NCBI RefSeq assembly: GCF_000300875.1 | Contig: NZ_AMSG01000019.1 | Location: 1 to 58,824 of the forward strand | Direction: 5' to 3' | Source: Galbibacter marinus | GTDB taxonomy: Bacteria > Bacteroidota > Bacteroidia > Flavobacteriales > Flavobacteriaceae | DNA length: 58,824 nt | Part shown: piece after piece, positions 11,052 through 45,056 of the stretch | How the letters are laid out: the number at the start of each line of letters is the position of its first letter | How positions within the stretch are numbered: position 1 is the first letter of the stretch | Translations under genes and position numbers: made by a program | Notes under the pieces: model-generated | What the model saw: only the letters and a program-made list of their open reading frames with translations | Database searches by the model: none | What the model was told of the DNA's origin: nothing

Positions 11052-11630
11052 TGTCCGATAAAACTTTTTAAAAGCGGGATTTCCTTGATGGATTTCCCGC
11101 TTTATAGTAATTTGGTTTTTCCACAAACTAAATACTATGAACAAAAGTAACAACATTAGCTGACAGCCCATCATTAAGCAACTATTAAAATTGCTTTCCC
11201 CATCAATAATTACCCGGACAGTATCCCAACACAACAGCGACAGGTATTACAAGCGTTTTAAAACATACGATCATTTGGTAACGATGCTTTACGCAACTTT
11301 GAGCGGTGTTAGCTCCCTGCGTGAGCTATCCACTATATTATTGGCCTGCGAGGGGCGAATAGGTCATTTGAACCTTAAACATTTTCCAAAACGCAGCACT
11401 TTGTCCGATGCCAACAAAAATCGTAGTAGCAAAGTCTTTGCCAATATCTACTATAGCTTGTTTAGGACTTACCGTTCATTTTTATCGGACAGCAGTCCGT
11501 TTTCCTTGCCCGTCAAGCATTTAAAAATCGTTGATTCCACCACCATAAGCCTGTTCAGTGATATTTTAAAAGGTGTTGGCCGCAACCCTGTCAACGGTAA
11601 GAAAAAGGAAAAGCTTTTAAAGCATATATA
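11052..11630 (+). mobile_element. Decayed IS4-family insertion sequence, left part only
   Basis: The left tip TGTCCGATAAAAC is followed by a hairpin (AAGCGGGA with TCCCGCTT, about 11071-11104) of the sort that shields IS genes from outside transcription, and then a broken transposase gene. No right end is visible, and at about 11640 the sequence changes to an AraC fragment. It borders the efflux operon on its promoter side. Confidence 0.6.
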
Positions 11631-11631
11631 A
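11137..11631 (+). pseudogene. IS4-family transposase (DUF4372 N-terminal domain), truncated with internal stop
   Basis: From the ATG at 11137 the frame reads MNKSNNIS, a TGA at 11161-11163, then QPIIKQLLKLLSPSIITRTV and the typical IS4/DUF4372 block (RYYKRFKTYDHLVTMLYATL, SLRELS). It reaches the first catalytic Asp region (KIVDSTTISLF). After GRNPVNGKKK the expected GG(I/V)KxH sequence is lost and the frame ends. The remaining two thirds of the catalytic domain are absent. A premature stop and a truncation make it inactive. Confidence 0.8.
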
Positions 11632-32996: not shown

Positions 32997-33033
32997 TGAT
33001 TTATTTCAAATTTAAAAAATTATTTGAAGTTCA

Positions 33034-33153
33034 TGTCACAAAATAAGGGTAATATTTCAAAATAATTGTAACAAAATAAGGGTAATATTTTCATTTCATG
33101 TCACAAGATAAGGGTAATATTCCCAAATATTTGTAACAGAATAAGGGTAATTT
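33034..33153. repeat. Four tandem 22-23-bp repeats in front of the DUF4143 ATPase gene
   Basis: Units begin at 33034, 33067, 33099 and 33132, periods 33, 32 and 33 bp. Each carries TGT(C/A)ACA, then (A/G)(A/G)ATAAGGGTAAT. Units 1 and 3 read TGTCACA and are preceded by TTCA; units 2 and 4 read TGTAACA and are preceded by an AT-only stretch. The array is therefore a 65-bp tandem duplication of a two-unit block. The spacers are 9-10 bp, too short for CRISPR. Located 38-157 bp upstream of the ATPase start. The rest of 32997-33354 holds nothing else recognisable. Confidence 0.85.
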
Positions 33154-33354
33154 ACGCTTTGGTTTAAAAATAATAAAGGAAAAAATTCACTGTTATACTC
33201 TAATTAGCCTAACCAATATAAAGGTTGGGAGAGACCACTTAACTTATTAATAAATTAACCCTTATCAATAATAGCCAAAAAAGCAGCCCTTTACCATTTA
33301 AAAAGCTGCTCATTAATCTAATTTTCAGGATAATCCCTAAGGTTAAGCAATAAT

Positions 33355-34218
33355 TTAGTAGTCAAGTCTACTCATAAATTCCCTTATCTTACCAATGATT
33401 TGGTCGCCATGATCCTCTAAAGCAAAGTGTCCAGTGTCATAAAGATTATAATCAAGGTTTTTGACATCTTTTTTAAAGGCCTCAGCACCGCTCTTTGGAA
33501 AGTACTCATCATTTTTACCCCAAACAACTAAAACTGGCGGTTGATAGTCTCTTAAATACTGCTGCCACTTTGGGTATAGTTTTAAGTTATTTTGATAGTC
33601 ATACCATAAATCCAAATTTACCTTATGAGCATTAGGACGCTGCATTCGCAGATAATCTAAATGCCAAGAGTCTGGATTAATTTTTTGATGATCTTTGGTT
33701 CCGTGCGTATAATCCCATTTTAATCCATCAAGTGTAAATGCTGGTAACAAAGGTGCTTCTGTTTCAGGATTCCGATCAGCCCACATAGCTTTTATCCCTT
33801 TCCAAACTTCTCCAATTCCTTCAAGGTAAGCGTTCCCATTCTGAGTAATAATTGCAGTAATACGCTCAGGATGAGCCGTTGCAAGTCTAAATCCTATAGG
33901 AGCACCATAATCTTGCATCATAATAGCATATGATTTGATCCCACGTTTGTCCAAGAAAGCATCAATTGTTTTTGCTATATTATCGAAGGTGTATTGATAA
34001 CTACTCGGATCAGGAAAATCACTCAAACCAAATCCAGGATAATCTGGCGCAATTAAGTGGTAAGAATCAGACAATTGATCTAATACCTTTCTGTATTGGT
34101 GTGAAGAAGACGGATACCCATGTAAAAGTACAATTGTCGGATTTTCTTCGTTTCCTGCTTCACGATAAGCGATGGTAACCCCATCTACATTATCTTGTTT
34201 AAACTTAGTGTTTCGCAT
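33355..34218 (-). CDS. Alpha/beta hydrolase of the haloalkane dehalogenase/epoxide hydrolase type
   Basis: 287 residues. HGYPSSSHQYR forms the oxyanion-hole loop, and the nucleophile elbow is MQDYGAPIG with Asp103, so this is an Asp- rather than Ser-nucleophile enzyme. VVWGKNDEYFP carries the acid and GHFALEDHG (His about 264) the base. Asp nucleophiles are typical of haloalkane dehalogenases and epoxide hydrolases. The substrate is not decidable. A TetR-type operator is 22 bp upstream and matches one in front of the TetR gene next door. Confidence 0.88.
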   Translation of the reverse strand: MRNTKFKQDNVDGVTIAYREAGNEENPTIVLLHGYPSSSHQYRKVLDQLSDSYHLIAPDYPGFGLSDFPDPSSYQYTFDNIAKTIDAFLDKRGIKSYAIMMQDYGAPIGFRLATAHPERITAIITQNGNAYLEGIGEVWKGIKAMWADRNPETEAPLLPAFTLDGLKWDYTHGTKDHQKINPDSWHLDYLRMQRPNAHKVNLDLWYDYQNNLKLYPKWQQYLRDYQPPVLVVWGKNDEYFPKSGAEAFKKDVKNLDYNLYDTGHFALEDHGDQIIGKIREFMSRLDY

Positions 34219-34239
34219 GATGTAAAAATTAAAAGTTTT

Positions 34240-34259
34240 ATTACCGACCGTTCGATAAA
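34240..34259. promoter_or_regulatory. TetR-type operator in front of the hydrolase
   Basis: On the minus strand TTTATCGAACGGTCGGTAAT, 16 of 20 positions identical with the site at 34866. The dyad TTTAyC...GGTAA around a CG-rich centre is typical of TetR-family operators. Confidence 0.65.
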
Positions 34260-34277
34260 TTACTTAGGTAATTTTTT

Positions 34278-34838
34278 TTACTCCAAGTACCTTTTGGAAA
34301 TATTTTTTAAAGTTCTATCAAAAATATTAGTGTTCCCAATTCCTCTTGTTAACACAAGACTTCCTTGGATATCAATGAGTGTTTGTAAAGCATAGTCATT
34401 AGCTACTTCAGTTGATAGATTGAGTTCCACCCCAATTCGCTCAAATCTCTCGATCCACTGCTTCATTCCATCCTGAATTTGTTTACCAAACAAATCAATT
34501 CCTGCTTCCATGGATAACGCTCTTAAAATACATGTTCGTTTCCCTCCATCGTATAACACGGCAATATTATCTAGAGCAATTTGTAAACGTACCTCGGGTT
34601 TTAAATTATCATCCTGTAAGACATCAAAAACATTTTGCTGAATAAAATCATGCAAATGTAAAAACACAGCATCAGCCATTTCTTTTTTCCCGTCAGGGAA
34701 ACGATGATACAAGCTGGCTTTCTTTAAGCCAGAAGCTGCGGCAAGATCTTGAAGACTTGCACCTTCATATCCTTTGGAACAAAATACTTCTGTTAACCCA
34801 TTAATAACCTCTTTGTCTAACGCTTTTTGTGGTCTCAT
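34278..34838 (-). CDS. TetR/AcrR-family transcriptional regulator
   Basis: 186 residues. N-terminal HTH: ASLQDLAAASGLKKASLYHR, FPDGKKEM. The C-terminal domain resembles the LmrA/YxaF-like group. It is on the same strand as the hydrolase gene, 59 bp upstream, and both are preceded by the same 20-bp operator, which supports autoregulation plus control of the hydrolase. Confidence 0.88.
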   Translation of the reverse strand: MRPQKALDKEVINGLTEVFCSKGYEGASLQDLAAASGLKKASLYHRFPDGKKEMADAVFLHLHDFIQQNVFDVLQDDNLKPEVRLQIALDNIAVLYDGGKRTCILRALSMEAGIDLFGKQIQDGMKQWIERFERIGVELNLSTEVANDYALQTLIDIQGSLVLTRGIGNTNIFDRTLKNISKRYLE

Positions 34839-34865
34839 AGGGCAAATGTATGAAACTTTAAGTAA

Positions 34866-34885
34866 TTTACCAAACGATCGGTAAA
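34866..34885. promoter_or_regulatory. TetR-type operator in front of the TetR gene
   Basis: TTTACCAAACGATCGGTAAA contains the dyad TTTACC/GGTAAA around CGATCG, 28 bp upstream of the regulator's ATG; its partner site is at 34240. Confidence 0.65.
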
Positions 34886-34978
34886 CAAATGTTGTATTGC
34901 GGTTTTAAACGTTCTTATATTAGTAAAACAAGGGGGCCTTTTGCCCCCTGTATCTACATATTAGTTTTGAAGCCTCTA

Positions 34979-35368
34979 TTACTTAACAACTGTTGCTTCC
35001 AACTCCACTTTTAAAGTTTCAAACAAACTCACCACCTCCATAAGGGTTAGAGATTGTTGCATTTTATGCTCTTCGATCCAGCTCTGAACAATGTCAAAAT
35101 GAGGCCAAAGTTCTGCCGTTGCAGTAGTGTAGATATTTAGTCGAACAATATTTTTACTCTCATAGCCCGCGCTATCAATTACTTTTTCTAAATTTTTGAT
35201 AGCAAGTTCTAACTGTGTTTTCATATCAGCTGTACTAGATACTCCGTGATCGTCAATTGCTGTTTGACCTGAGACATATAACGTACCTTCAGCATTTTTA
35301 ACTTCAACTGCTTGATTATAGCTGCGCTGATCTTGCCATTTCCAGGGATTCACTACTCTCTTTTCCAT
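34979..35368 (-). CDS. RidA-family (Rid/YjgF) protein
   Basis: 129 residues with the small trimeric Rid fold: LYVSGQTAID, the MKTQLELAIKNLEKVIDSAG helix, IVRLNIYTT with the family Arg, and a SLTLMEVVSL end replacing the usual RxxV/IE pattern. RidA enzymes hydrolyse reactive enamine/imine intermediates. Divergence of the C-terminal Arg-Glu region suggests a Rid subgroup other than archetypal RidA. It lies downstream of a Crp gene oriented the same way. Confidence 0.82.
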   Translation of the reverse strand: MEKRVVNPWKWQDQRSYNQAVEVKNAEGTLYVSGQTAIDDHGVSSTADMKTQLELAIKNLEKVIDSAGYESKNIVRLNIYTTATAELWPHFDIVQSWIEEHKMQQSLTLMEVVSLFETLKVELEATVVK

Positions 35369-35457
35369 GTATATAATCTTTACTTATTAAGACAACAAAT
35401 TTCGCAAAATGTAGTAACTGTCACCTGTGATGTAGATCACAAAAAGTAAAGACTAAA

Positions 35458-36018
35458 CTACGAAGACAACCTACTTAATGTTTCTCTCGAGACTCCAAGA
35501 TAAGAAGCTAATAGTGTTTTAGAAACTCTTTGCAAAAGTGAAGGGTATCGCCGTAAAAGATGTTCATACCGACTCTCCGTGGAAGAACTAAGCAAGGATA
35601 AGATACGCTGCTGTGAGGCAATATGACCAGCGGTTGCCTTTTCTAAAAAGAAATGTTCGAGTTTCGGTAATTTGTTGCAGAGGTTTTGATAATCCTTAAG
35701 GGTTATACATAAAATTTCTGAAGCTTCAAGACACTGTAAATTGATTTTGGCTCTGGCCATGGTATTAAAAGCTAAATAATCGGTTTCCCACCAATCCTCT
35801 CTTGGAAAAGAAAGAATGTGATCTTTTCCAGATTCATCCGTATAAAAGAGTTTCAAAAGCCCACTAACTACAAAAAACATTTGTGGCACAGTTTCTCCTA
35901 TTCGCACTAGATAATCCCCTTTTTTAAAGCGCTTCTTAGTAAAGTGAGTTGTAATTAATAAAAATTCTTCATCACTTAGTGGAAGTATTTCTTCAATGTG
36001 TTTTCTGAGTCTCTCCAT
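35458..36018 (-). CDS. Crp/Fnr-family transcriptional regulator
   Basis: 186 residues. The cNMP-binding-like domain (KKRFKKGDYLVRIGETVPQM; FFVVSGLLKLFYTDESGKDH) is followed by a helix and a winged HTH ending LLASYLGVSRETLSRLSS. No cAMP-contact Arg-Ser pair. It is placed 89 bp before the RidA-like gene on the same strand, its probable target, and 11 bp after the HxlR gene. Confidence 0.85.
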   Translation of the reverse strand: MERLRKHIEEILPLSDEEFLLITTHFTKKRFKKGDYLVRIGETVPQMFFVVSGLLKLFYTDESGKDHILSFPREDWWETDYLAFNTMARAKINLQCLEASEILCITLKDYQNLCNKLPKLEHFFLEKATAGHIASQQRILSLLSSSTESRYEHLLRRYPSLLQRVSKTLLASYLGVSRETLSRLSS

Positions 36019-36029
36019 GATTTTCTAGA

Positions 36030-36386
36030 TCAATTACCAATAATTTTCTTACGGTGTTCCACGCCCCAAGCAGTAAGATTTTTAATAATCGTCTGCAGGG
36101 AGCGTCCATGATCCGTGAGCTCGTATTGTACTGTAATGGGTTGGGTCTCCAACACAGTTCGTTTGATGAGCTGATTAAATTCCAATTCCTTTAATTCTTT
36201 ACTCAACATTCTATTTGAAATCCCAACAACATCTTTGGAGATATCCGAGAACCTCCTTTTGTTATAATAGCAAATAGAGGATATAATGGAGATTTTCCAT
36301 TTCCCATTAAGCACGTCCATAGAATCCTGTACTGCCATCATTTCACGCTTATATTCTTGTTCGAAATTCTCTCTTTTACACTCCAT
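36030..36386 (-). CDS. HxlR-family transcriptional regulator
   Basis: 118 residues, a MarR-like winged helix: VLNGKWKISIISSICYYNKR, RFSDISKDVVGISNRMLSKE, LKELEFNQLIKRTV and the wing TVQYELTDHGRSLQTII. Cys residues near the N-terminus (Cys3 and one in the ISSICYY segment) could sense oxidants or electrophiles as in YodB-type members. It faces an SDR pair across a symmetric 108-bp promoter region. Confidence 0.9.
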   Translation of the reverse strand: MECKRENFEQEYKREMMAVQDSMDVLNGKWKISIISSICYYNKRRFSDISKDVVGISNRMLSKELKELEFNQLIKRTVLETQPITVQYELTDHGRSLQTIIKNLTAWGVEHRKKIIGN

Positions 36387-36424
36387 AATGTTACCTAGTT
36401 ACACCAATGTTACAGTTATTAATA

Positions 36425-36469
36425 GGTACAAAGTTACTTAAAATAACCATTCTAATATACATTTGTACC
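36425..36469. promoter_or_regulatory. Divergent promoter region with inverted GGTACAAA/TTTGTACC
   Basis: TACATTTG (36458-36465, plus strand) and TAACTTTG (36436-36429, minus strand) are TAnnTTTG elements for the SDR and HxlR genes. GGTACAAA (36425-36432) and TTTGTACC (36462-36469) are exact complements at the outer edges of the two elements, giving a symmetric arrangement that one HxlR dimer pair could cover. Confidence 0.5.
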
Positions 36470-36494
36470 AGAAATCAATTTTAAATCGTAAACC

Positions 36495-37250
36495 ATGAAT
36501 AAATTAAAAGATAAAGTAGCACTAGTGACAGGGGCTTCGAAAGGAATAGGAGCTTCAATTGCAATCCATTTTGCTAAAGAAGGTGCTATGGTTGTAGTTA
36601 ACTACGCTTCAAGTAATAGTGACGCGCAAAAGGTTGTAAATACAATAATAAATGATGGTGGAACAGCCATTGCGGTTAAAGGCGATGTTTCTAAACAGAC
36701 AGATGTAGATCGTATATTTCGAGAAACAGAAAATGCGTATGGAACCTTGGATATACTGGTAAACAATGCCGGGGTTTTTCAGTACCTTCCAATAGATGAA
36801 TTAACGGAAGAATCTTTCCACAAACAATTTAACATCAACGTTTTGGGCTCAATTTTGAGCATTCAAAAAGCAGTTCAGTTTTTTGGAACAAAAGGGGGTA
36901 ACATAATAAACATTAGCTCTGAGGCTTCCAAATTGCCGCTTCCAACAGGATCCATATATTCTGCAAGCAAAGCAGCCCTAGATGCCGTTACCGTTTCCTT
37001 ATCAAAGGAACTCACTGGTAGGAATATCCGCATCAATTCACTTTTACCCGGTGTTGTAGACACCGTGGGATCAAGAAATGCAGGCTTCATTGGTAGTGAG
37101 GTAGAAAAAGACATGATTAATAAAACACCTCTTGGCCGAACTGGACAACCAGAAGATATCGCAAAAGTAGCAGTCTTTTTAGCCTCTGATGATGCTAATT
37201 GGATCAATGGACAGAAGCTATCGGTAACTGGTGGGATTTTTGGCTTGTAG
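36495..37250 (+). CDS. SDR-family oxidoreductase (FabG-like)
   Basis: 251 residues. TGASKGIG cofactor loop, NYASSNSDA after beta-2 (NADP type), NNAGVFQYLP, ISSEASKLPLPTGSIYSASK with catalytic Ser, Tyr and Lys. First gene of a three-SDR row on the plus strand, divergent from the HxlR regulator. HxlR-SDR pairs usually answer to electrophiles or quinones, but the substrate is unknown. Confidence 0.9.
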   Translation: MNKLKDKVALVTGASKGIGASIAIHFAKEGAMVVVNYASSNSDAQKVVNTIINDGGTAIAVKGDVSKQTDVDRIFRETENAYGTLDILVNNAGVFQYLPIDELTEESFHKQFNINVLGSILSIQKAVQFFGTKGGNIINISSEASKLPLPTGSIYSASKAALDAVTVSLSKELTGRNIRINSLLPGVVDTVGSRNAGFIGSEVEKDMINKTPLGRTGQPEDIAKVAVFLASDDANWINGQKLSVTGGIFGL

Positions 37251-37286
37251 GAGCAATTTATATTTAACAATTTAATCCATTACAGA

Positions 37287-38057
37287 ATGAGTAAACTTAA
37301 AGACAAAGTAGCTGTTATTACTGGTGGTAATAGCGGAATAGGATATGGTATTGCTTCCTCTTTTAGTGATGAGGGAGCGATCGGTGCCATAACTGGAAGG
37401 AATAAAGAAACCTTAAAAAGTTCCTTGGAAACACTTAATCCAAACTTTATAGCCTTGGAGGGTGATATCACTAGAAAAGATGATTTAGATCGTATTTTCA
37501 AAACAACTTCCGAGAAATTCGGAAAAATCGATGTACTAGTTGTTAATGCTGGAGGTGTAGTAGACGGAGTTCCTATGGAAACCATTACTGATATTACTGA
37601 AGAGCATTATGACAAATACATGGATTTAAATTTAAAGGGTGCATACTTTACAGTAAAAGCCTCTCTACCCTATCTAAAAGACGGTGCATCGATTATACTT
37701 ATTGGATCTAGTGCAGCACACCGTGCAGCTCCAGGAATGACCGTATATGGTGCTGCTAAAGCTGCCGTTATTTCGATGGCAAAGGGAATTTCGCTTGACT
37801 TACTTTCCAGAAATATTCGGGTCAATGTACTTTCCCCTGGCACCATTAGAACCCCAGCATTTGATAAAATGATTCCTGCAGAGTCAGTGAATGACGTACT
37901 TCAAACATGGGTAGACATCATCCCAGTTGGACGGGCTGGTCAGCCTTCAGACATCGGAAATGCGGCAGTATTTTTAGCCTCTGATGATTCTCAATTTGTT
38001 GTGGGCACAGAGATTTTGTCAGATGGAGGGATGACTAACATCAGCCTAATGAGGTAA
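37287..38057 (+). CDS. SDR-family oxidoreductase
   Basis: 256 residues: TGGNSGIGYG loop, TGRNKETL after beta-2 (Arg-rich, NADP type), LEGDIT, VVNAGGVV in place of NNAG, IGSSAAHRAAPGMTVYGAAK. It starts 36 bp after the preceding SDR gene and is surely co-transcribed. The two proteins are related but not near-identical, so an old duplication or independent recruitment. Confidence 0.9.
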   Translation: MSKLKDKVAVITGGNSGIGYGIASSFSDEGAIGAITGRNKETLKSSLETLNPNFIALEGDITRKDDLDRIFKTTSEKFGKIDVLVVNAGGVVDGVPMETITDITEEHYDKYMDLNLKGAYFTVKASLPYLKDGASIILIGSSAAHRAAPGMTVYGAAKAAVISMAKGISLDLLSRNIRVNVLSPGTIRTPAFDKMIPAESVNDVLQTWVDIIPVGRAGQPSDIGNAAVFLASDDSQFVVGTEILSDGGMTNISLMR

Positions 38058-38104
38058 TAAATCAAAGTGCATTAGAAAGAAATTTAATTATAAATAAAAC
38101 AGAT

Positions 38105-39190
38105 ATGATACAAAACAATAACAACGGATTATTACAAAAACCTCTAGGATCAGGTTTTGGTGCTAGCTCAACAGCTAATGATGTGATCAATGGAATTGAC
38201 TTGAAAGGGAAGATTGCCATTGTTACTGGCGCGAGCACAGGCATAGGATTAGAAACATTAAAAACATTATCAAATGCTGGGGCAACTGTCGTTGCTGGGG
38301 TGCGCAACATTGATAAAGCCAAGAATAATCTTCAAAATAGACCCAATGTTGAAATAGAACAATTGGATTTGATGGATGCTAATTCCATTAACAACTTTAC
38401 ACAAAAGTTTTTGGATTCCAAACGGCCTTTAGATTTACTTATTAATAATGCCGGAATTATGTTCGTTCCTCTTCGACGAAATGATCGCGGTATAGAATCG
38501 CAATTAGCAACAAATTACTTAGCGGTATTTCAGTTGACAGCAAATTTATGGAGCGCTTTAAAAGCGGCAGGAAATGCTAGAGTTCTAAATATCTCCTCTC
38601 AAGGCCACCAATTTGCTCCTTTTGATTTTGAAGATCCAAATTTTGAAAAAAGAGATTATGATTCGCTTTCCGCTTATGGACAGTCAAAAACGGCCATTAA
38701 TTTATTCACTTTTGAACTTGATAATCGTGCAAAAGATTTTGGAGCCGAGGGCGTCGATACTATTGCGCATCACACCGCTATTATAAATGGTCGTACAATT
38801 GCGGTTCTTGGGACTTCATTAGATGTAGTTTACCCAAAATCAAACAAAGATCTATTTAAAATTATTAAGGCAAACCATTTGGCCATCTCCCAGTTCGAGA
38901 CCAATCATCCTATTTTAAAATCGAATTTCCCACAAAGAAATCGTACTATGGCATTAATTTCAGAGGCCACCTTTATTATTGAAGCCACAGAAATAAGCGG
39001 AACTAGATATCAAGGTTGGGAAGCTTTGAGATTAGGTAGAGCCCTTTATATTTTAGAAAATGTAGTTCGAAATACAAAATGGGCACGGGAAAAGATACAA
39101 TACGGCGCTGTTGTGTTGACAAATAAAATGTTAGAAAGGGCCATTGAAGACATGCCGTATTCTACTTCAAAATTTGATTATGAGTTTTAA
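38105..39190 (+). CDS. Chimeric protein: SDR N-terminal two thirds fused in frame to a DprA-like C-terminal segment
   Basis: 361 residues made of two unrelated families. Residues 1-213 are an SDR of the retinol-dehydrogenase-like type: TGASTGIGLETLKTL, LLINNAGIMFVP, NISSQGH, and YGQSKTA with Tyr and Lys. At about Gly213 (nt 38741-38755) the sequence switches to the second half of a DprA/Smf Rossmann domain: AEGVDTIAHHTAI, GRTIAVLGTSLDVVYPKSNK, NFPQRNRTMALISEATFIIE, and a QGWEALRLGR block. The SDR C-terminus and the DprA nucleotide-binding front are both missing. Either a deletion joined two genes in frame or this is a genuine new fusion; the former seems more likely. The SDR active-site triad is present. 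Confidence 0.8.
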   Translation: MIQNNNNGLLQKPLGSGFGASSTANDVINGIDLKGKIAIVTGASTGIGLETLKTLSNAGATVVAGVRNIDKAKNNLQNRPNVEIEQLDLMDANSINNFTQKFLDSKRPLDLLINNAGIMFVPLRRNDRGIESQLATNYLAVFQLTANLWSALKAAGNARVLNISSQGHQFAPFDFEDPNFEKRDYDSLSAYGQSKTAINLFTFELDNRAKDFGAEGVDTIAHHTAIINGRTIAVLGTSLDVVYPKSNKDLFKIIKANHLAISQFETNHPILKSNFPQRNRTMALISEATFIIEATEISGTRYQGWEALRLGRALYILENVVRNTKWAREKIQYGAVVLTNKMLERAIEDMPYSTSKFDYEF

Positions 39191-39200
39191 AATATTAGGT

Positions 39201-39213
39201 ACATTGTTAGCTG
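39201..39213. repeat. ACATTGTTAGCTG core, same as at the attC-like site near 57.4 kb
   Basis: The 13-mer ACATTGTTAGCTG lies between the chimera's stop and the acetyltransferase start and is identical to 57370-57382, the right core of the attC-like structure there. Here the rest of the structure is missing, as if truncated on the left by the same event that formed the chimera. Confidence 0.45.
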
Positions 39214-39231
39214 TAATACAAATTAAAAACT

Positions 39232-39684
39232 GTGATAGAAATCCGATTATTAGAAAAAGACGAACACATTCCTTATGAACTATTATTATTAGCAGACGAA
39301 TCCATTGATTCTATAAATAAATATTTACTTAAATCTAAAATTTATATTGCACAAAAAGGGTCAGAAATAATAGGGATATTTTGTTTATATAAAAATAATG
39401 AAACTGATATAGAACTAAAAAATATTGCCATAAAAGAGAAATATCAAAGGTTAGAATATGGAACTACTTTGATAGATTTTATAAAGACCGAAGTAAAGAA
39501 AAATTTCAAAACTTTAATTGTTGGCACAGCAGATGTTGGGTTTAGGCAAATCAAATTTTATGAAAAAAACGGATTTATTAAATTTGATGTTAGAAAAAAC
39601 TTTTTCCTAGAGAACTATCCAGAACCAATTATTGAAAACGGTGAAAGATTAAAAGATATGATCCTTTTGAAGTTTGAACTCTAA
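39232..39684 (+). CDS. GNAT-family N-acetyltransferase
   Basis: 150 residues starting at GTG (VIEIRLLEKDEHIPYELLLL is the expected family opening). Motif A is IKNIAIKEKYQRLEYGTTLI-like (LKNIAIKEKYQRLEYGTTL), with Arg-x-x-Gly/Tyr reshaped to RLEYGT, and motif B is GTADVGFRQIKFYEKNGFIK. Known acceptors range from small amines to protein N-termini; the target here is unknown. It sits in a run of gene fragments and next to an attC-like core, so it is probably an acquired cassette-type gene. Confidence 0.85.
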   Translation: MIEIRLLEKDEHIPYELLLLADESIDSINKYLLKSKIYIAQKGSEIIGIFCLYKNNETDIELKNIAIKEKYQRLEYGTTLIDFIKTEVKKNFKTLIVGTADVGFRQIKFYEKNGFIKFDVRKNFFLENYPEPIIENGERLKDMILLKFEL

Positions 39685-39708
39685 ATTTGCCCTCAAAAAT
39701 CTTATTTT

Positions 39709-39927
39709 TTTATAGAGATTCCTATTCATTCTGAATTTGACGACCAAGCTAACGACCAAGCTAATAAACTAACTAAAGAACAGATTGAAGTTTTAAAATA
39801 TTGTAAACCAGCAAGGTCTAATAAAGATGTTCAAGTTGAAGCTCTTAAACTTAAAGTTCATACAGATAACTTTAAAAGATATATTGAACCTCTTATAAGA
39901 TGGGTTATTAGAAATAACCATTCCTAA
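39709..39927 (+). pseudogene. C-terminal winged-helix remnant of an AlbA_2/RecG-like protein
   Basis: An open frame without a start, ending in TAA at 39925-39927. It reads DDQANDQANKLTKEQIEVLK, CKPARSNKDVQVEALKL, then HTDNFKRYIEPLIRWVI. The 'Q-A/V-T/N' repeat linker plus a short winged helix (LTKEQIEVLxFCKxPR...NFKRYIxPL) is the tail found on AlbA_2/Schlafen-type ATP-binding 'RecG-like' regulators. Everything upstream is gone. From 39928 to 40215 nothing was recognised. Confidence 0.45.
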
Positions 39928-40215
39928 TAAACATAGGAGTCCAAATCAAGAATATATAATAAAGAAACAAGGTTTAAGGGTTTTAAATCTAATCAATCAA
40001 AAATAGCATGGCAGGTTTAGTAACTATATTTTCTGGATTATAGTTAGCTGAATCAAGTATCAGTAAAGTTTTAAGTAAAAAAGGAACTAGAATTTTCATC
40101 TTTACATTAGTACTAAAAACTGAGGATTTAAACGGCTGTGTTAGACTACATAGTACTTAATAAAACAATAGAATAAGGTAGCAAAGAAAAATTAAATTTC
40201 AACAACCTTTAGACC

Positions 40216-40866
40216 CTAAATAACAAGGAGCTTATCACATACCACCTTACTGAGGGTTTCAGAGGGTCTATTCTCATATGACACCTTCATAGTCCCATCA
40301 AAAGGTTCAACTTCCAAAATTGTAAGCTTGGTTTCTAAAGATAGTTCTTTACTATTTAGATATTTTAAAAAAGCATCTGATGATTTAGCCACAGCCATAA
40401 ATGTTACAGTATCTCCAGCTTTGTATTGGCTCAGTTGGCGGTATTGTTTTCCAGGAATATTACCGTCTGAATCTGGAATTGGAGAACCGTGAGGATCATA
40501 GTTTGGATACTCAAGAATCTCATCCATTTTAGAAAAGAACAACGGAGAATTTACATGTTCAATTTGCTCAGCTATATCATGTACTTCTTCCCATCCAAAA
40601 CCCATTACCTCCACTAAAAACATTTCTGTGAGGCGGTGCTTTCTGATAATTTGAGCAGCTTCCCCCTTGCCTTTTATGGTTAACTTTACAGGTTTGTACT
40701 TTTGATAATTTACTAGCTGCTTTTCTGAAAGCTTCTTCACCATGCTAGTAACCGTTGGCATTTTGATATCCAAATGCTTAGAAAGTTCGTTTACACTAAC
40801 CTCTCCTTCGCTATTGGAAAGTAAAAATATTGCTTTGAGATAATTCTCTTCAACTAATGAATTCAT
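40216..40866 (-). CDS. DtxR/MntR-family metal-dependent regulator
   Basis: 216 residues: N-terminal winged HTH (SLVEENYLKAIFLLSNSEGE; LDIKMPTVTSMVKKLSEKQL), the metal-binding dimerisation domain (KHRLTEMFLVEVMGFGWEEV; HDIAEQIEHVNSPLFF) with the typical Glu/His ligands, and a C-terminal FeoA/SH3-like domain (YKAGDTVTFMAVAKSS). It senses Mn(II) or Fe(II). It faces a TonB receptor across a 117-bp region with a 16-bp palindrome and is very probably its repressor. The start is fixed by the family opening; the promoter leaves almost no leader. Confidence 0.9.
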   Translation of the reverse strand: MNSLVEENYLKAIFLLSNSEGEVSVNELSKHLDIKMPTVTSMVKKLSEKQLVNYQKYKPVKLTIKGKGEAAQIIRKHRLTEMFLVEVMGFGWEEVHDIAEQIEHVNSPLFFSKMDEILEYPNYDPHGSPIPDSDGNIPGKQYRQLSQYKAGDTVTFMAVAKSSDAFLKYLNSKELSLETKLTILEVEPFDGTMKVSYENRPSETLSKVVCDKLLVI

Positions 40867-40870
40867 AAAA

Positions 40871-40901
40871 CAAATATAGCGCTTTGAGAAAAGATGATCA
40901 A
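40871..40901 (-). promoter_or_regulatory. Promoter of the DtxR-type gene, (nearly) leaderless
   Basis: On the minus strand TTG (40901-40899), 20 bp, then TATATTTG (40878-40871). The ATG at 40866 is only 4 bp beyond the -7 element, so the transcript probably begins at or within a few bases of the start codon. Confidence 0.6.
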
Positions 40902-40929
40902 TCGGATAAAATTATATATATTAAATTTA

Positions 40930-40960
40930 TTTGTTAGATTAATCTAACTTAGTATTTTTG
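40930..40960 (+). promoter_or_regulatory. TonB-receptor promoter with DtxR-type operator between -33 and -7
   Basis: TTTG (40930-40933), a 19-bp spacer, and TATTTTTG (40953-40960) fit the Bacteroidota promoter consensus. The perfect palindrome GTTAGATTAATCTAAC (40933-40948) fills the spacer, the ideal place for a repressor. Its arms TTAGATT/AATCTAA resemble DtxR-family half-sites and recur, spread by 4 bp, in the palindrome at 20915. Confidence 0.75.
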
Positions 40961-40983
40961 TTATCCTAATAAATAATTGCGTT

Positions 40984-43287
40984 ATGAAAACTAATTTGCT
41001 TAACAGACTATTATATCCATTGTTTCTGCTCTGTTTCTCTCCTATAGTTTATGCTCAAACGGCAACGCTTTCTGGTACTGTGAGCTGTGATAATACACCA
41101 TTGCCCTTTGTAAACATTCAGCTTGAAGGTACCGAAATAGGAAGTGCAACCGATAGTTTTGGAAGCTTTACTATAACTGGCATTTCGCCAGGAGAATATC
41201 GGATTATTGTATCGGCTGTTGGCTTTAAAACAGTTACTCAAACCCTTACTCTTAATTCTGGCGAGCATCGATCTTTAGCAATTGAATTAAGTGAAGAAGA
41301 TTCCCATCTGAGCGAAGTGGTAATCACAGCCACGATGAAAGAGGTGTCAAAACTAGAGAGTCCAGTACCTGTTGAAGTCTATTCTGCAAAATTCTTTAAA
41401 AGCAATCCTTCCGCTTCTATATTTGATGCTTTACAAAACATCAATGGAGTACGTCCTCAGATTAATTGTAATGTGTGTAATACAGGTGATATACACATTA
41501 ACGGATTGGAGGGGCCCTATACCATGGTACTAATCGACGGCATGCCAGTAGTGAGTGGGTTAGCCACAGTATACGGCCTTAGTGGTATTCCACAATCCTT
41601 AATTGATAGGGTAGAAATTGTAAAAGGACCAGCTTCTACTCTTTACGGGAGTGAAGCTGTAGGTGGGCTTATTAATATTATTACCAAAACACCTTCTCAA
41701 ACACCAAAATTAACTGTTGATACCTTTGGTAGTTCATGGGGAGAACTCAACCTAGATATATCATCCAAGATTCAAATAAACAAAAAGGTTCAATCGCTTC
41801 TCGGGGTCAATTACTTTAGGTATCAAAACCCCATAGATAAAAACGGGGATAACTTTACTGATGTTACTTTGCAGGATCGTATTTCCGTTTTTAATAAATG
41901 GCATATTAAGCGAAATCATAATCGTCAATTTTCTTTCGCAGGTCGCTATGTGTACGAAGATCGATGGGGTGGAGAAATGGATTGGTCTAAAGAATATCGG
42001 GGCGGAACAGAAATTTATGGGGAAAGTATTTATACCAGTCGTTGGGAACTTTTTGGAAATTACCAGTTACCCTTTGATGAAAAGTTACTTTTTCAGTTTA
42101 GCCTCAATGGTCATAATCAAAATAGTGCCTATGGGAATCTCTCATATATGGCTGATCAAAAAATAGCTTTTGGTCAACTCACCTGGAATAAGATATTTAA
42201 TCGGCATGATATACTCGCTGGATTGACCTACCGATACACTTATTATGATGACAATACCCCTGCAACAGCTTCCTTTAGTGATCCGAATTTTAATCAACCT
42301 AGCCATACCCACTTACCAGGATTGTTTATGCAGGATCAGATTAGTTTTCCTTCAAACCACAAAATATTGGTCGGATTGCGCTATGACTATAACTCCATTC
42401 ACGGAAGTATACTAACACCGCGGTTAAACTACAAATGGCATTCTAAAGATCAAAACAACATTATTCGTTTAGGTATAGGCAACGGCTACCGTGTAGCCAA
42501 TGTTTTTACCGAAGATCATGCCGCTTTAACAGGGGCGAGGTCAGTGGTGTTTCTGGACGACTTAAAACCTGAAAAGTCGTGGAATGCCAATATTAATTTG
42601 GTAAAAAAGCTTTACACGGACAAGGGTACATTTATACAATTTGATGCAAGTGTATTTTACACCTATTTTGAAAACAAAATCATTGCGGATTACAATACAG
42701 ACCCCAATAAGATCATCTATGATAACCTTGATGGCTATGCGGTATCCAAAGGTATTTCTTTAAATACAAATTGGGTATTAGCTAGTGGATTAAAGGTACT
42801 AGCGGGTGCAACCCTCATGGATGTATACAGCATAGAGCAATCTAAGCGTACACCACAGTTATTTACCGAGAAATTTACCGCAGTATGGAATGTTGGCTAT
42901 GAATTTAGTGCATTGAAATTAAAGCTTGACTATACCGGAAATCTTTACGGTCCCATGGCTCTACCGCTGCTTAGTGATACAGATCCGAGAAAAGAAAACT
43001 CCCCATGGTGGAGTATTCAGAACCTACAGCTCACAAAAAATATTGGTACTGGCTTTGAACTCTATGGTGGGGTGAAGAACTTACTGAATTGGACTCCTTG
43101 GAAGGACAGTCCTTTTATCATTGCTCGTTCCCATGATCCTTTTGATAAAAATGTGGAGTTTGATTCCAATGGCAAGGCCCTAGTGACTGATCAAAATCCA
43201 TATGGATTAACCTTTGACCCCTCTTATGTTTATGGACCGAATCAGGGCATTAGAGGATTTATGGGGATTCGTTGGCGGATGGATTAA
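40984..43287 (+). CDS. TonB-dependent receptor (metal-related, DtxR-controlled)
   Basis: 767 residues: signal peptide (ending VYAQ), carboxypeptidase-like domain (LSGTVSCDNTPLPFVNIQLE; GSFTITGISPGEYRIIVSAV), a plug with NCNVCNTGDIHINGLEGPYT, MVLIDGMPVV and IVKGPASTLYGSEAVGG, then the barrel ending in FMGIRWRMD. The CNVCNTGD cysteine pair in the plug marks a receptor subgroup often found with metal homeostasis genes. The operator in its promoter and the divergent DtxR gene suggest uptake of Mn or Fe complexes. The end overlaps the convergent SDR gene by 4 bp. Confidence 0.9.
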   Translation: MKTNLLNRLLYPLFLLCFSPIVYAQTATLSGTVSCDNTPLPFVNIQLEGTEIGSATDSFGSFTITGISPGEYRIIVSAVGFKTVTQTLTLNSGEHRSLAIELSEEDSHLSEVVITATMKEVSKLESPVPVEVYSAKFFKSNPSASIFDALQNINGVRPQINCNVCNTGDIHINGLEGPYTMVLIDGMPVVSGLATVYGLSGIPQSLIDRVEIVKGPASTLYGSEAVGGLINIITKTPSQTPKLTVDTFGSSWGELNLDISSKIQINKKVQSLLGVNYFRYQNPIDKNGDNFTDVTLQDRISVFNKWHIKRNHNRQFSFAGRYVYEDRWGGEMDWSKEYRGGTEIYGESIYTSRWELFGNYQLPFDEKLLFQFSLNGHNQNSAYGNLSYMADQKIAFGQLTWNKIFNRHDILAGLTYRYTYYDDNTPATASFSDPNFNQPSHTHLPGLFMQDQISFPSNHKILVGLRYDYNSIHGSILTPRLNYKWHSKDQNNIIRLGIGNGYRVANVFTEDHAALTGARSVVFLDDLKPEKSWNANINLVKKLYTDKGTFIQFDASVFYTYFENKIIADYNTDPNKIIYDNLDGYAVSKGISLNTNWVLASGLKVLAGATLMDVYSIEQSKRTPQLFTEKFTAVWNVGYEFSALKLKLDYTGNLYGPMALPLLSDTDPRKENSPWWSIQNLQLTKNIGTGFELYGGVKNLLNWTPWKDSPFIIARSHDPFDKNVEFDSNGKALVTDQNPYGLTFDPSYVYGPNQGIRGFMGIRWRMD

Positions 43288-43955
43288 GATATGAGTTCTA
43301 CAAACTCATTTCGCACATCTTCCCCAAAGGTTACAGAATTATAAGTACAATATTCACGAATTACAGGGTCAAAAGAATGAATAGCAATCTTAGAGGGTTT
43401 AAATTCCTTAGCCTGTAAGACGGTAAACATATTCAAGGCAGCTTTTGAGGTAGCATAGGCTGTCAGGCTGTAATCTGAGTAACAAAAGGTTTTATCCTTC
43501 ATCTTATTAATATCACCCAAAGCACTGGAAACATTAATAATTCTGGGGGATTCACCCTTTTCTAATAGGGGTTTTGTTATTTTAACCAAGCGTAAGACAG
43601 CAAAAAAGTTAATATCAAACAAGCATTTAACCTCATCCATTTTTATTTGACTAATTTTTTGTCCAAAACCATTTACCGTTTCGGCATTATTGATCAGTAA
43701 ATCCAATTTTCCAAACTTAGAATCTAAGAATTGTTTTAACTCATATAAACTATCTTTAGAGCAGAAATCAACCTCAATAACTCTACAATCCTGCGCCTCT
43801 ACATAGGTCTTTGTAAGTAACTCATAACTCTTTCCTGCTGCAGCAAGTATAACTTTATAGTTATATTCAAGCAGTAGGTCGGCAAATATTTTACCAAGCC
43901 CATTCCCCGCCTCTGTAACCAGAGCTATTCTTTTTTCCTCCATAACATTCACCAT
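43284..43955 (-). CDS. SDR-family oxidoreductase with degenerate cofactor loop
   Basis: 223 residues, shorter than usual. The loop reads VTEAGNGLGK instead of TGxxxGIG, LLINNAETVNGFG replaces NNAG, and VSSALGD and YSLTAYATSKAALN supply Ser, Tyr and Lys. The pattern resembles the 'carbonyl reductase' SDRs. Length and the altered glycine loop suggest weakened or different cofactor binding. It converges on the TonB receptor gene with a 4-bp overlap. Confidence 0.85.
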   Translation of the reverse strand: MVNVMEEKRIALVTEAGNGLGKIFADLLLEYNYKVILAAAGKSYELLTKTYVEAQDCRVIEVDFCSKDSLYELKQFLDSKFGKLDLLINNAETVNGFGQKISQIKMDEVKCLFDINFFAVLRLVKITKPLLEKGESPRIINVSSALGDINKMKDKTFCYSDYSLTAYATSKAALNMFTVLQAKEFKPSKIAIHSFDPVIREYCTYNSVTFGEDVRNEFVELIS

Positions 43956-44060
43956 GTTTTAATTTACAAATTTATCAAACACTTTGCCATAACGAATACA
44001 TTTTTATTTTAAGGGGTTGGTTTACTAGTTTTTGGTTTCATAGTAGCTGGCCTTTTTAAT

Positions 44061-44948
44061 TTATGATTTTCTGAATTGATTAGGTGTGGATCCAGATTGT
44101 TTTTTAAAGAACCTTGTAAAATGCGTGGGTTCATCAAAATTTAATCGGTGCGATATCTCTGCGATATCTAGGTCCGAATATTTCAGCAAACTTTTACTCT
44201 CGGTAAATAAACGTTCATTTATAATATCCTTTGCACTCTTACCTGTAAGGCTTTTTACCGTGGTTGTCAGGTAATTTGGCGTTATATTTAAGGCCTCGGC
44301 ATAGGAGCTTACGTTCTTAGTATCTACATACATCTTATCTACGAGTATTTCAAATTGATTGGCTATGGTCTGTGATCTTGATAACTGATATTCCTGTGTT
44401 TTACTTCGTTCAAAAATCGCCTTGCAATAATACAATAAAGAAGCTAACATTCCTTCCAACATCTTGCCTTGATATGGGTGTGGATTCCTAGAAACTGAAT
44501 ACATACGCTTCATATCAAAAACCAAGGATTTATGCTCCACTTCATTAAGTAAGAGCATGTTCTTTTCAGAAATTTTCAAAAATGGAAAATCTGTAATCAA
44601 ATCAGAGAAAGAGTTCCCAAGAAACTCTTTTCTAAACAACATAAAATAACCCGTCATACGTTTGTCCCTTACCCATGAAAATACTTGGCCAGGCACTACA
44701 AATAACAAGGGGAAACCTTCTAAATTAAGTAAATCCGTATTGAGATTAAACTCGGTTTCCCCGTAATTACTCATTAGTGCGATCTGGTAGAACCCCTGTC
44801 TATAAGGAGGCATACATCTCCTAGCAGAAGGCTCTAAACTTTCGATAGTAAAAATATCGAAATCTGGTATTTGGCTTTGATGTTCTAAGCCAATACCCTG
44901 GTAAAAATCATTAAAAGTTTCAAAAATTGGAATTTTGGTCTCGATCAT
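44061..44948 (-). CDS. AraC-family transcriptional regulator
   Basis: 295 residues. A cupin-like N-terminal domain (CMPPYRQGFYQIALMS; LPLLFVVPGQVFSWV-like segment) is followed by a double HTH (about 195-290): VSSYAEALNITPNYLTTTVK and LDIAEISHRLNFDEPTHFTR with FKKQSGSTPNQFR. It lies just downstream of the RND efflux operon on the same strand, so it is a candidate regulator of the pump. Confidence 0.88.
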   Translation of the reverse strand: MIETKIPIFETFNDFYQGIGLEHQSQIPDFDIFTIESLEPSARRCMPPYRQGFYQIALMSNYGETEFNLNTDLLNLEGFPLLFVVPGQVFSWVRDKRMTGYFMLFRKEFLGNSFSDLITDFPFLKISEKNMLLLNEVEHKSLVFDMKRMYSVSRNPHPYQGKMLEGMLASLLYYCKAIFERSKTQEYQLSRSQTIANQFEILVDKMYVDTKNVSSYAEALNITPNYLTTTVKSLTGKSAKDIINERLFTESKSLLKYSDLDIAEISHRLNFDEPTHFTRFFKKQSGSTPNQFRKS

Positions 44949-45056
44949 TAATAATGCTTACAACTTAATTTATTTTGCTTTTTTACAATGTGCAAAGCAC
45001 AGTTACCTTCAAAAATCTACTGCTATATTGGTCTTTTTTTTATTCAAACACTTACA

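Follow-up and report, generated by a model that had tools for sequence, protein, structure and literature searches.

Does an open reading frame that begins as an SDR-type enzyme and ends as a DprA-like protein encode a new protein, or is it what remains of two broken genes? The question is raised by a frame of 361 codons in Galbibacter marinus. The window, i.e. the whole stretch of DNA analysed here (58,824 nt), is one entire contig of a 3.57 Mb assembly in 80 contigs, and the frame is composed as follows:

38105-39190, + strand: SDR-ShosA chimera, ORF of 361 aa without internal stop
38105..38743, + strand: SDR-type front part (residues 1-213), lacking the C-terminal third of an SDR (Pfam, NCBIfam, alignment, tree)
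38743..38744, + strand, uncertain by a few bases: in-frame junction KDFG / AEGVDT (codons compared to those of relatives of both parents)
38744..39190, + strand: second half of ShosA, residues 214-361 and stop (PADLOC ShosA PDLC03961, Pfam PF02481, alignment)

The initial annotation had read residues 1-213 as an SDR front and residues 214-361 as the second half of a DprA-type domain, with no stop at the junction, and all of this was confirmed. Pfam assigned adh_short to residues 36-210 (E 6.9e-25) and DNA_processg_A (PF02481) to residues 213-337, at profile positions 81-209 of 212 (E 2e-28). The SDR motifs TGASTGIG, NNAG and YGQSK as well as the DprA motifs GVDTIAHHTAI, VLGTSLDVVYP and NFPQRNR are present in the translation. 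Among solved structures matched by sequence, SDR chains fall on the front and DprA chains on the end (3uqz, residues 214-339, E 1e-16). With an identity of up to 67-68% to intact SDRs and of 62-63% to intact ShosA, the two-domain match is, as judged from sequence comparison, far beyond chance.

The SDR front closes a row of three SDR genes, of which the first two are intact:

36495..37250, + strand: SDR 1 of the row, 251 aa (Pfam adh_short_C2 / adh_short; same place in the Hymenobacter tibetensis plasmid row)
37287..38057, + strand: SDR 2 of the row, 256 aa (Pfam adh_short_C2 / adh_short; same place in the Hymenobacter tibetensis plasmid row)

NCBIfam identifies the front as a PRK06196-type oxidoreductase at profile positions 5-208 of 320 (score 243.3), compared with positions 5-316 (score 372.1) for an intact SDR relative; the curated cut-off of 414 exceeds both scores and itself separates neither. 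By this profile search the chimera lacks the C-terminal part and with it the full fold of such an SDR (about 320-340 aa), and a query with the SDR C-terminus matched nothing in the assembly at E≤1, an empty answer which alone proves nothing. Alignment with SDR relatives showed that the active-site features are kept (T41-G48, N114-G117, S165, Y191xxxK195). Among 397 family genomes, the three closest SDRs have uninterrupted frames of 335-346 aa and match the chimera up to residue 214-216. Over residues 1-213 the chimera is 65-68% identical to three intact SDRs. The SDR half was matched in 29 of 395 sampled phylum genomes, the chimera's own genome included (E≤1e-35); the 29 matches from the 28 other genomes end at residue 211-216 in 22 cases, at 220-233 in six and at 130 in one.

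A complete row of the order HTH-SDR-SDR-SDR, with the HTH gene on the other strand and a small hypothetical gene separating SDR 1 from SDR 2, is carried by the Hymenobacter tibetensis plasmid NZ_CP094672.1, where the third SDR is intact (1014 bp, 337 aa). In a tree of 15 SDRs, shown without support values, the SDR half falls into one group with the plasmid SDR and an SDR of H. volaticus. The chimera thus resembles the third gene of the plasmid row in residues 1-213 and in the gene order upstream, and differs from it in that the C-terminal third is replaced. Since the complete row is plasmid-borne in H. tibetensis, the row of the window is probably mobile cargo as well.

The other parent had been proposed to be a divergent DprA-like gene of defence regions, and this could be sharpened: by its similarities, the DprA-type half is ShosA, the DprA-like partner of ShosTA / DprA-PRTase anti-phage pairs. 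The PADLOC model PDLC03961 matches the chimera (E 1.4e-38) over positions 153-285 of 303, compared with positions 87-287 in an intact ShosA, and the first ~74 residues of ShosA are missing. The half is 62-63% identical to DprA-like proteins of 224-225 aa in two genomes (G195 and G222); alignments with ShosA relatives begin at chimera residue 213-214, in one case at 201, and the end of the chimera coincides with the end of intact ShosA. In both genomes a gene of about 210 aa follows the intact ShosA, and PADLOC calls the pair of G195 ShosA and ShosT. A complete ShosA (about 225 aa or longer, with the VSVVGSR front half) was not found at the locus, nor the front half elsewhere in the assembly, where a ShosA query matched only the chimera locus at E≤1. 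No relatives came up when the contigs were scanned with the ShosA half by itself; an alignment-based query then yielded 357 stretches in the genome collection (80 retained) and another 13 in viral contigs. ShosA genes occur across distant phyla and also on viral contigs. Compared with a ShosTA / DprA-PRTase pair, chimera residues 214-361 correspond to the second half of ShosA, with the same end and an 11-nt overlap onto a shosT-like start; unlike such a pair, the chimera lacks the first half, has an SDR as its front, and is not accompanied by a detectable ShosT.

A complete canonical dprA was not found in the chimera's genome, where TIGR00732 matches only the ShosA fragment. This profile exceeded its cut-off in five of seven genomes of the genus, G256 being likewise without a match. 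The canonical dprA may lie in a gap of the draft.

Each parent has therefore an intact form in relatives, as the initial annotation had proposed to look for, and the two forms meet near chimera residue 213. By codons the join reads GAT TTT GGA / GCC GAG GGC, between the KxFG of the SDR and the A(E/K)G(V/I)DT of ShosA, and two or three bases at most would be common to both parents at this point. Within the 58,824-nt window, no repeated 15- or 20-mer was found up to 60 nt from the junction. Both halves in one match were found only in the chimera's own genome, among 397 genomes of the family, 395 of the phylum and 7 of the genus (overlapping samples, each including the own genome; at most five candidates were scored per genome in the family and phylum scans, all in the genus scan). 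SDR motifs occur in none of 92 ORFs with a ShosA motif, and the DprA motif in none of 34 SDR ORFs; these counts rest on permissive motif matching, for the ShosA loci on the + strand, and not on profiles. An established SDR-DprA fusion family, with the same architecture common in relatives, is thus not seen in the genomes searched, and a literature search for comparable fusions found nothing to the point. The six other genomes of the genus hold no protein match to the chimera at E≤1e-20 and neither an empty nor an intact site. In their DNA the left flank (33000-38100) has a single match, 0.3 kb long and located at the HTH gene, in one of the six, and the TonB-receptor part of the right flank is matched in four of the six, at 64-66% identity.

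Downstream of the chimera, at the place of the expected partner gene, two features were found:

39180..39278, + strand: possible shosT remnant of 32 open codons, with an 11-nt overlap (ATGAGTTTTAA) between its start and the shosA stop, without PRTase domain
39232..39684, + strand: GNAT acetyltransferase ORF, 150 aa, where shosT is expected (Pfam Acetyltransf_7, E 1.2e-11)

The overlap (39180-39190) has almost the same letters in a Chryseobacterium plasmid. An ORF with a PRTase motif lies downstream of shosA in 73 of 93 loci, and in 37 of these 73 the stop and start overlap by 11 nt; the counts likewise come from permissive motif matching on the + strand rather than from profiles, and in six of the 93 the motif filter gave no ORF. 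Pfam returned nothing at E≤1 for the remnant ORF. In ungapped comparison, 22 of the window's 1102 12-mers starting with M reach the score of the remnant; with one gap allowed to the remnant and none to these controls, the number is 8, 11, 14 or 31 of 1102, depending on the place of the gap, and residues 5-12 alone are at chance level (14879 of 72039). As a sequence match, the remnant is only suggestive. A ShosT query against the own assembly gave a best match of only E 0.13, and no phosphoribosyltransferase adjoins the chimera in the Pfam search, the GNAT gene following instead, so that at most the start of shosT survives. The GNAT ORF is near full length in comparison with its relatives (tblastn; one relative covers 99%). 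It has a low GC content of 0.258 and a GTG start and lies directly after the broken shosTA stretch; in plasmid records, the best 8 of 46 matches are 36-41% identical and mostly from other phyla.

We consider it likely that the ORF is a private, deletion-made chimeric pseudogene which inactivated both the third SDR of the row and a ShosTA system. Chimeric pseudogenes that arise from deletions between genes are a known general kind. The present case is like them in its two cut parents, in being in frame and in being private to one genome, and unlike them only in the identity of the two parents. The deletion would have occurred by illegitimate recombination and not between long repeats, joining codon 213 of the SDR, the third gene of a mobile row, to codon ~75 of shosA, and the open frame would have been kept by luck, at one chance in three. 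A second loss may have taken shosT and left at most its start-codon overlap beside the GNAT gene. ShosA is reported as the antitoxin of ShosT; the loss of shosT thus probably preceded or accompanied that of the shosA front. As the chimera starts 47 nt after the second SDR, it may still be transcribed with the row. Its product is probably unable to reduce a substrate or to keep a toxin in check, and should misfold or be degraded. Each parent has lost core parts. The initial proposal that the third SDR of the row was joined to a defence-type DprA gene holds well here, with both parents intact elsewhere and the join confined to one genome.

An insertion in place of a deletion, by which a broken shosTA fragment was captured into the SDR gene and the remainder of the SDR was lost simultaneously, is improbable. 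It would suit a shosTA stretch of about 0.5 kb that is broken off inside shosA on one side and no further than shortly past the shosT start on the other, and it would suit the genus mates, none of which offers an empty or intact site. However, the 3′ part of the SDR gene must vanish as well, and by eye no transposase was seen among the ORFs listed at 33000-45000. The edges are without listed repeats, except for an exact 14-nt direct repeat (AGTTTTAAAATATT) that lies over the chimera's stop codon, i.e. that of shosA (39183-39196), with its other copy in an orphan tail fragment (39789-39802). As a recombination seam this repeat was rejected, as it sits at the ShosA stop and the tail, away from the SDR-ShosA join.

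It is very improbable that the ORF encodes a new and maintained two-part protein, in which the nucleotide-binding core of the SDR would use the ShosA half as a partner or stabilising domain, for example in an NAD(P)-responsive binding protein. All 361 codons are open, the Gly-rich, NNAG and YxxxK motifs are kept and the gene may be read with the SDR row. The initial suggestion that the open frame may encode a stable new protein was, however, weakened by the structure prediction proposed along with it. AlphaFold gave the fusion a mean pLDDT of 65.8, with ten-residue means of 90-96 over residues 31-110, 55-88 over 111-210, 39-61 over 211-310 and 70-81 over 311-350; low values are thus not confined to the ShosA side. 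An intact ShosA, modelled from six sequences, reached 90.0 (four of five control models 88.9-90.0, the fifth 57.8). The ShosA half therefore appears, in these models, to lose its predicted fold without its first half, whereas intact ShosA is predicted well. The missing front holds three strands (26-29, 39-44 and 69-72 in the intact model), so that the second half would stand without its neighbours. The second halves of the six control sequences were also used for the fusion, and the control query is one of its own six rows; the alignment behind the fusion model comprised 15 rows, those of the SDR type being of low identity. Two earlier alignments had been dropped before prediction: in one, of which the summary only was viewed, the front half of full-length ShosA might align onto the SDR part, and in the other SDR rows had aligned onto the ShosA part. 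In a Foldseek search with the fusion, the 50 rows shown of 1996 matches were all SDR-type enzymes.

The two halves differ in their signs of decay. Neither a stop nor a frameshift was found in the chimera. The ShosA half breaks 3 of 61 conserved columns, as many as or fewer than 16 of 65 intact ShosA, and its root-to-tip distance is ordinary (rank 27 of 66), so that it has diverged no more than many intact homologues; 65 of the 93 loci were taken for this comparison (loci up to L150, and L165 and L166). The SDR half departs from 10 of 112 conserved columns, compared with 2-6 in 13 of 14 intact SDRs and 20 in the remaining one, and its root-to-tip distance is the second longest of 15 (0.51 vs a median of 0.28); here 14 of 15 loci were used, L183 having been missed by the motif filter. 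The long branch may reflect faster change or only distance, and we take the changes of the SDR half to be towards residues that are common in other SDRs. The ShosA half thus looks free of mutational decay, which would fit a young join or a maintained protein, while the more broken SDR half and the absence of the fusion from all other genomes searched speak against the latter. A young join would explain both the unremarkable ShosA half and the more broken SDR half, and the chimera is probably young.

That a stable, expressed newborn fusion of an SDR cofactor core with half a phage-defence sensor is already being maintained is very unlikely, and nothing positively supports a stable new protein. 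If true, it would offer a rare glimpse of metabolic and defence genes recombining their domains, and the locus would gain greater importance only if the product were stable and maintained. For the chimeric pseudogene, the meaning is a different one: mobile cargo, here an SDR row known from a plasmid and a gene of the ShosA type, which is met in distant phyla and on viral contigs, can erode by joining, and automatic annotation could call the ORF 'SDR' or 'DprA', neither of which is complete.

An assembly artefact, by which two unconnected loci were wrongly put together in one contig of the draft, is very unlikely: the draft consists of 80 contigs, but for neither gene did a search of the assembly recover the missing half (an empty answer that alone shows nothing), no 15-mer near the junction is repeated in the window, GC is alike on both sides (0.366 and 0.374), and completeness and contamination are estimated at 100% and 0.15%.

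Two elements had further been named as marks of a deletion hotspot, and neither held up. For an attC-like core at 39201, the strict RYYYAAC..GTTRRRY pair is absent from both strands of 38700-40300; for a winged-helix tail at 39709, Pfam and NCBIfam gave no match at E≤1 and tblastn no relative in the plasmid collection. In 38000-41000, RNA families gave two matches at E≤1, both far under their gathering scores. A scan with an E. coli-type consensus counted 8 promoter-like sites vs 10.8 in shuffled sequences, and 0 terminators vs 1.1. The tail fragment itself (39709-39927) is open over 72-73 codons, matches no family and contains a 12-nt tandem repeat, ACGACCAAGCTA, twice. At 11191-11631 lies a short ORF of 146 aa, which looks like a cut transposase.
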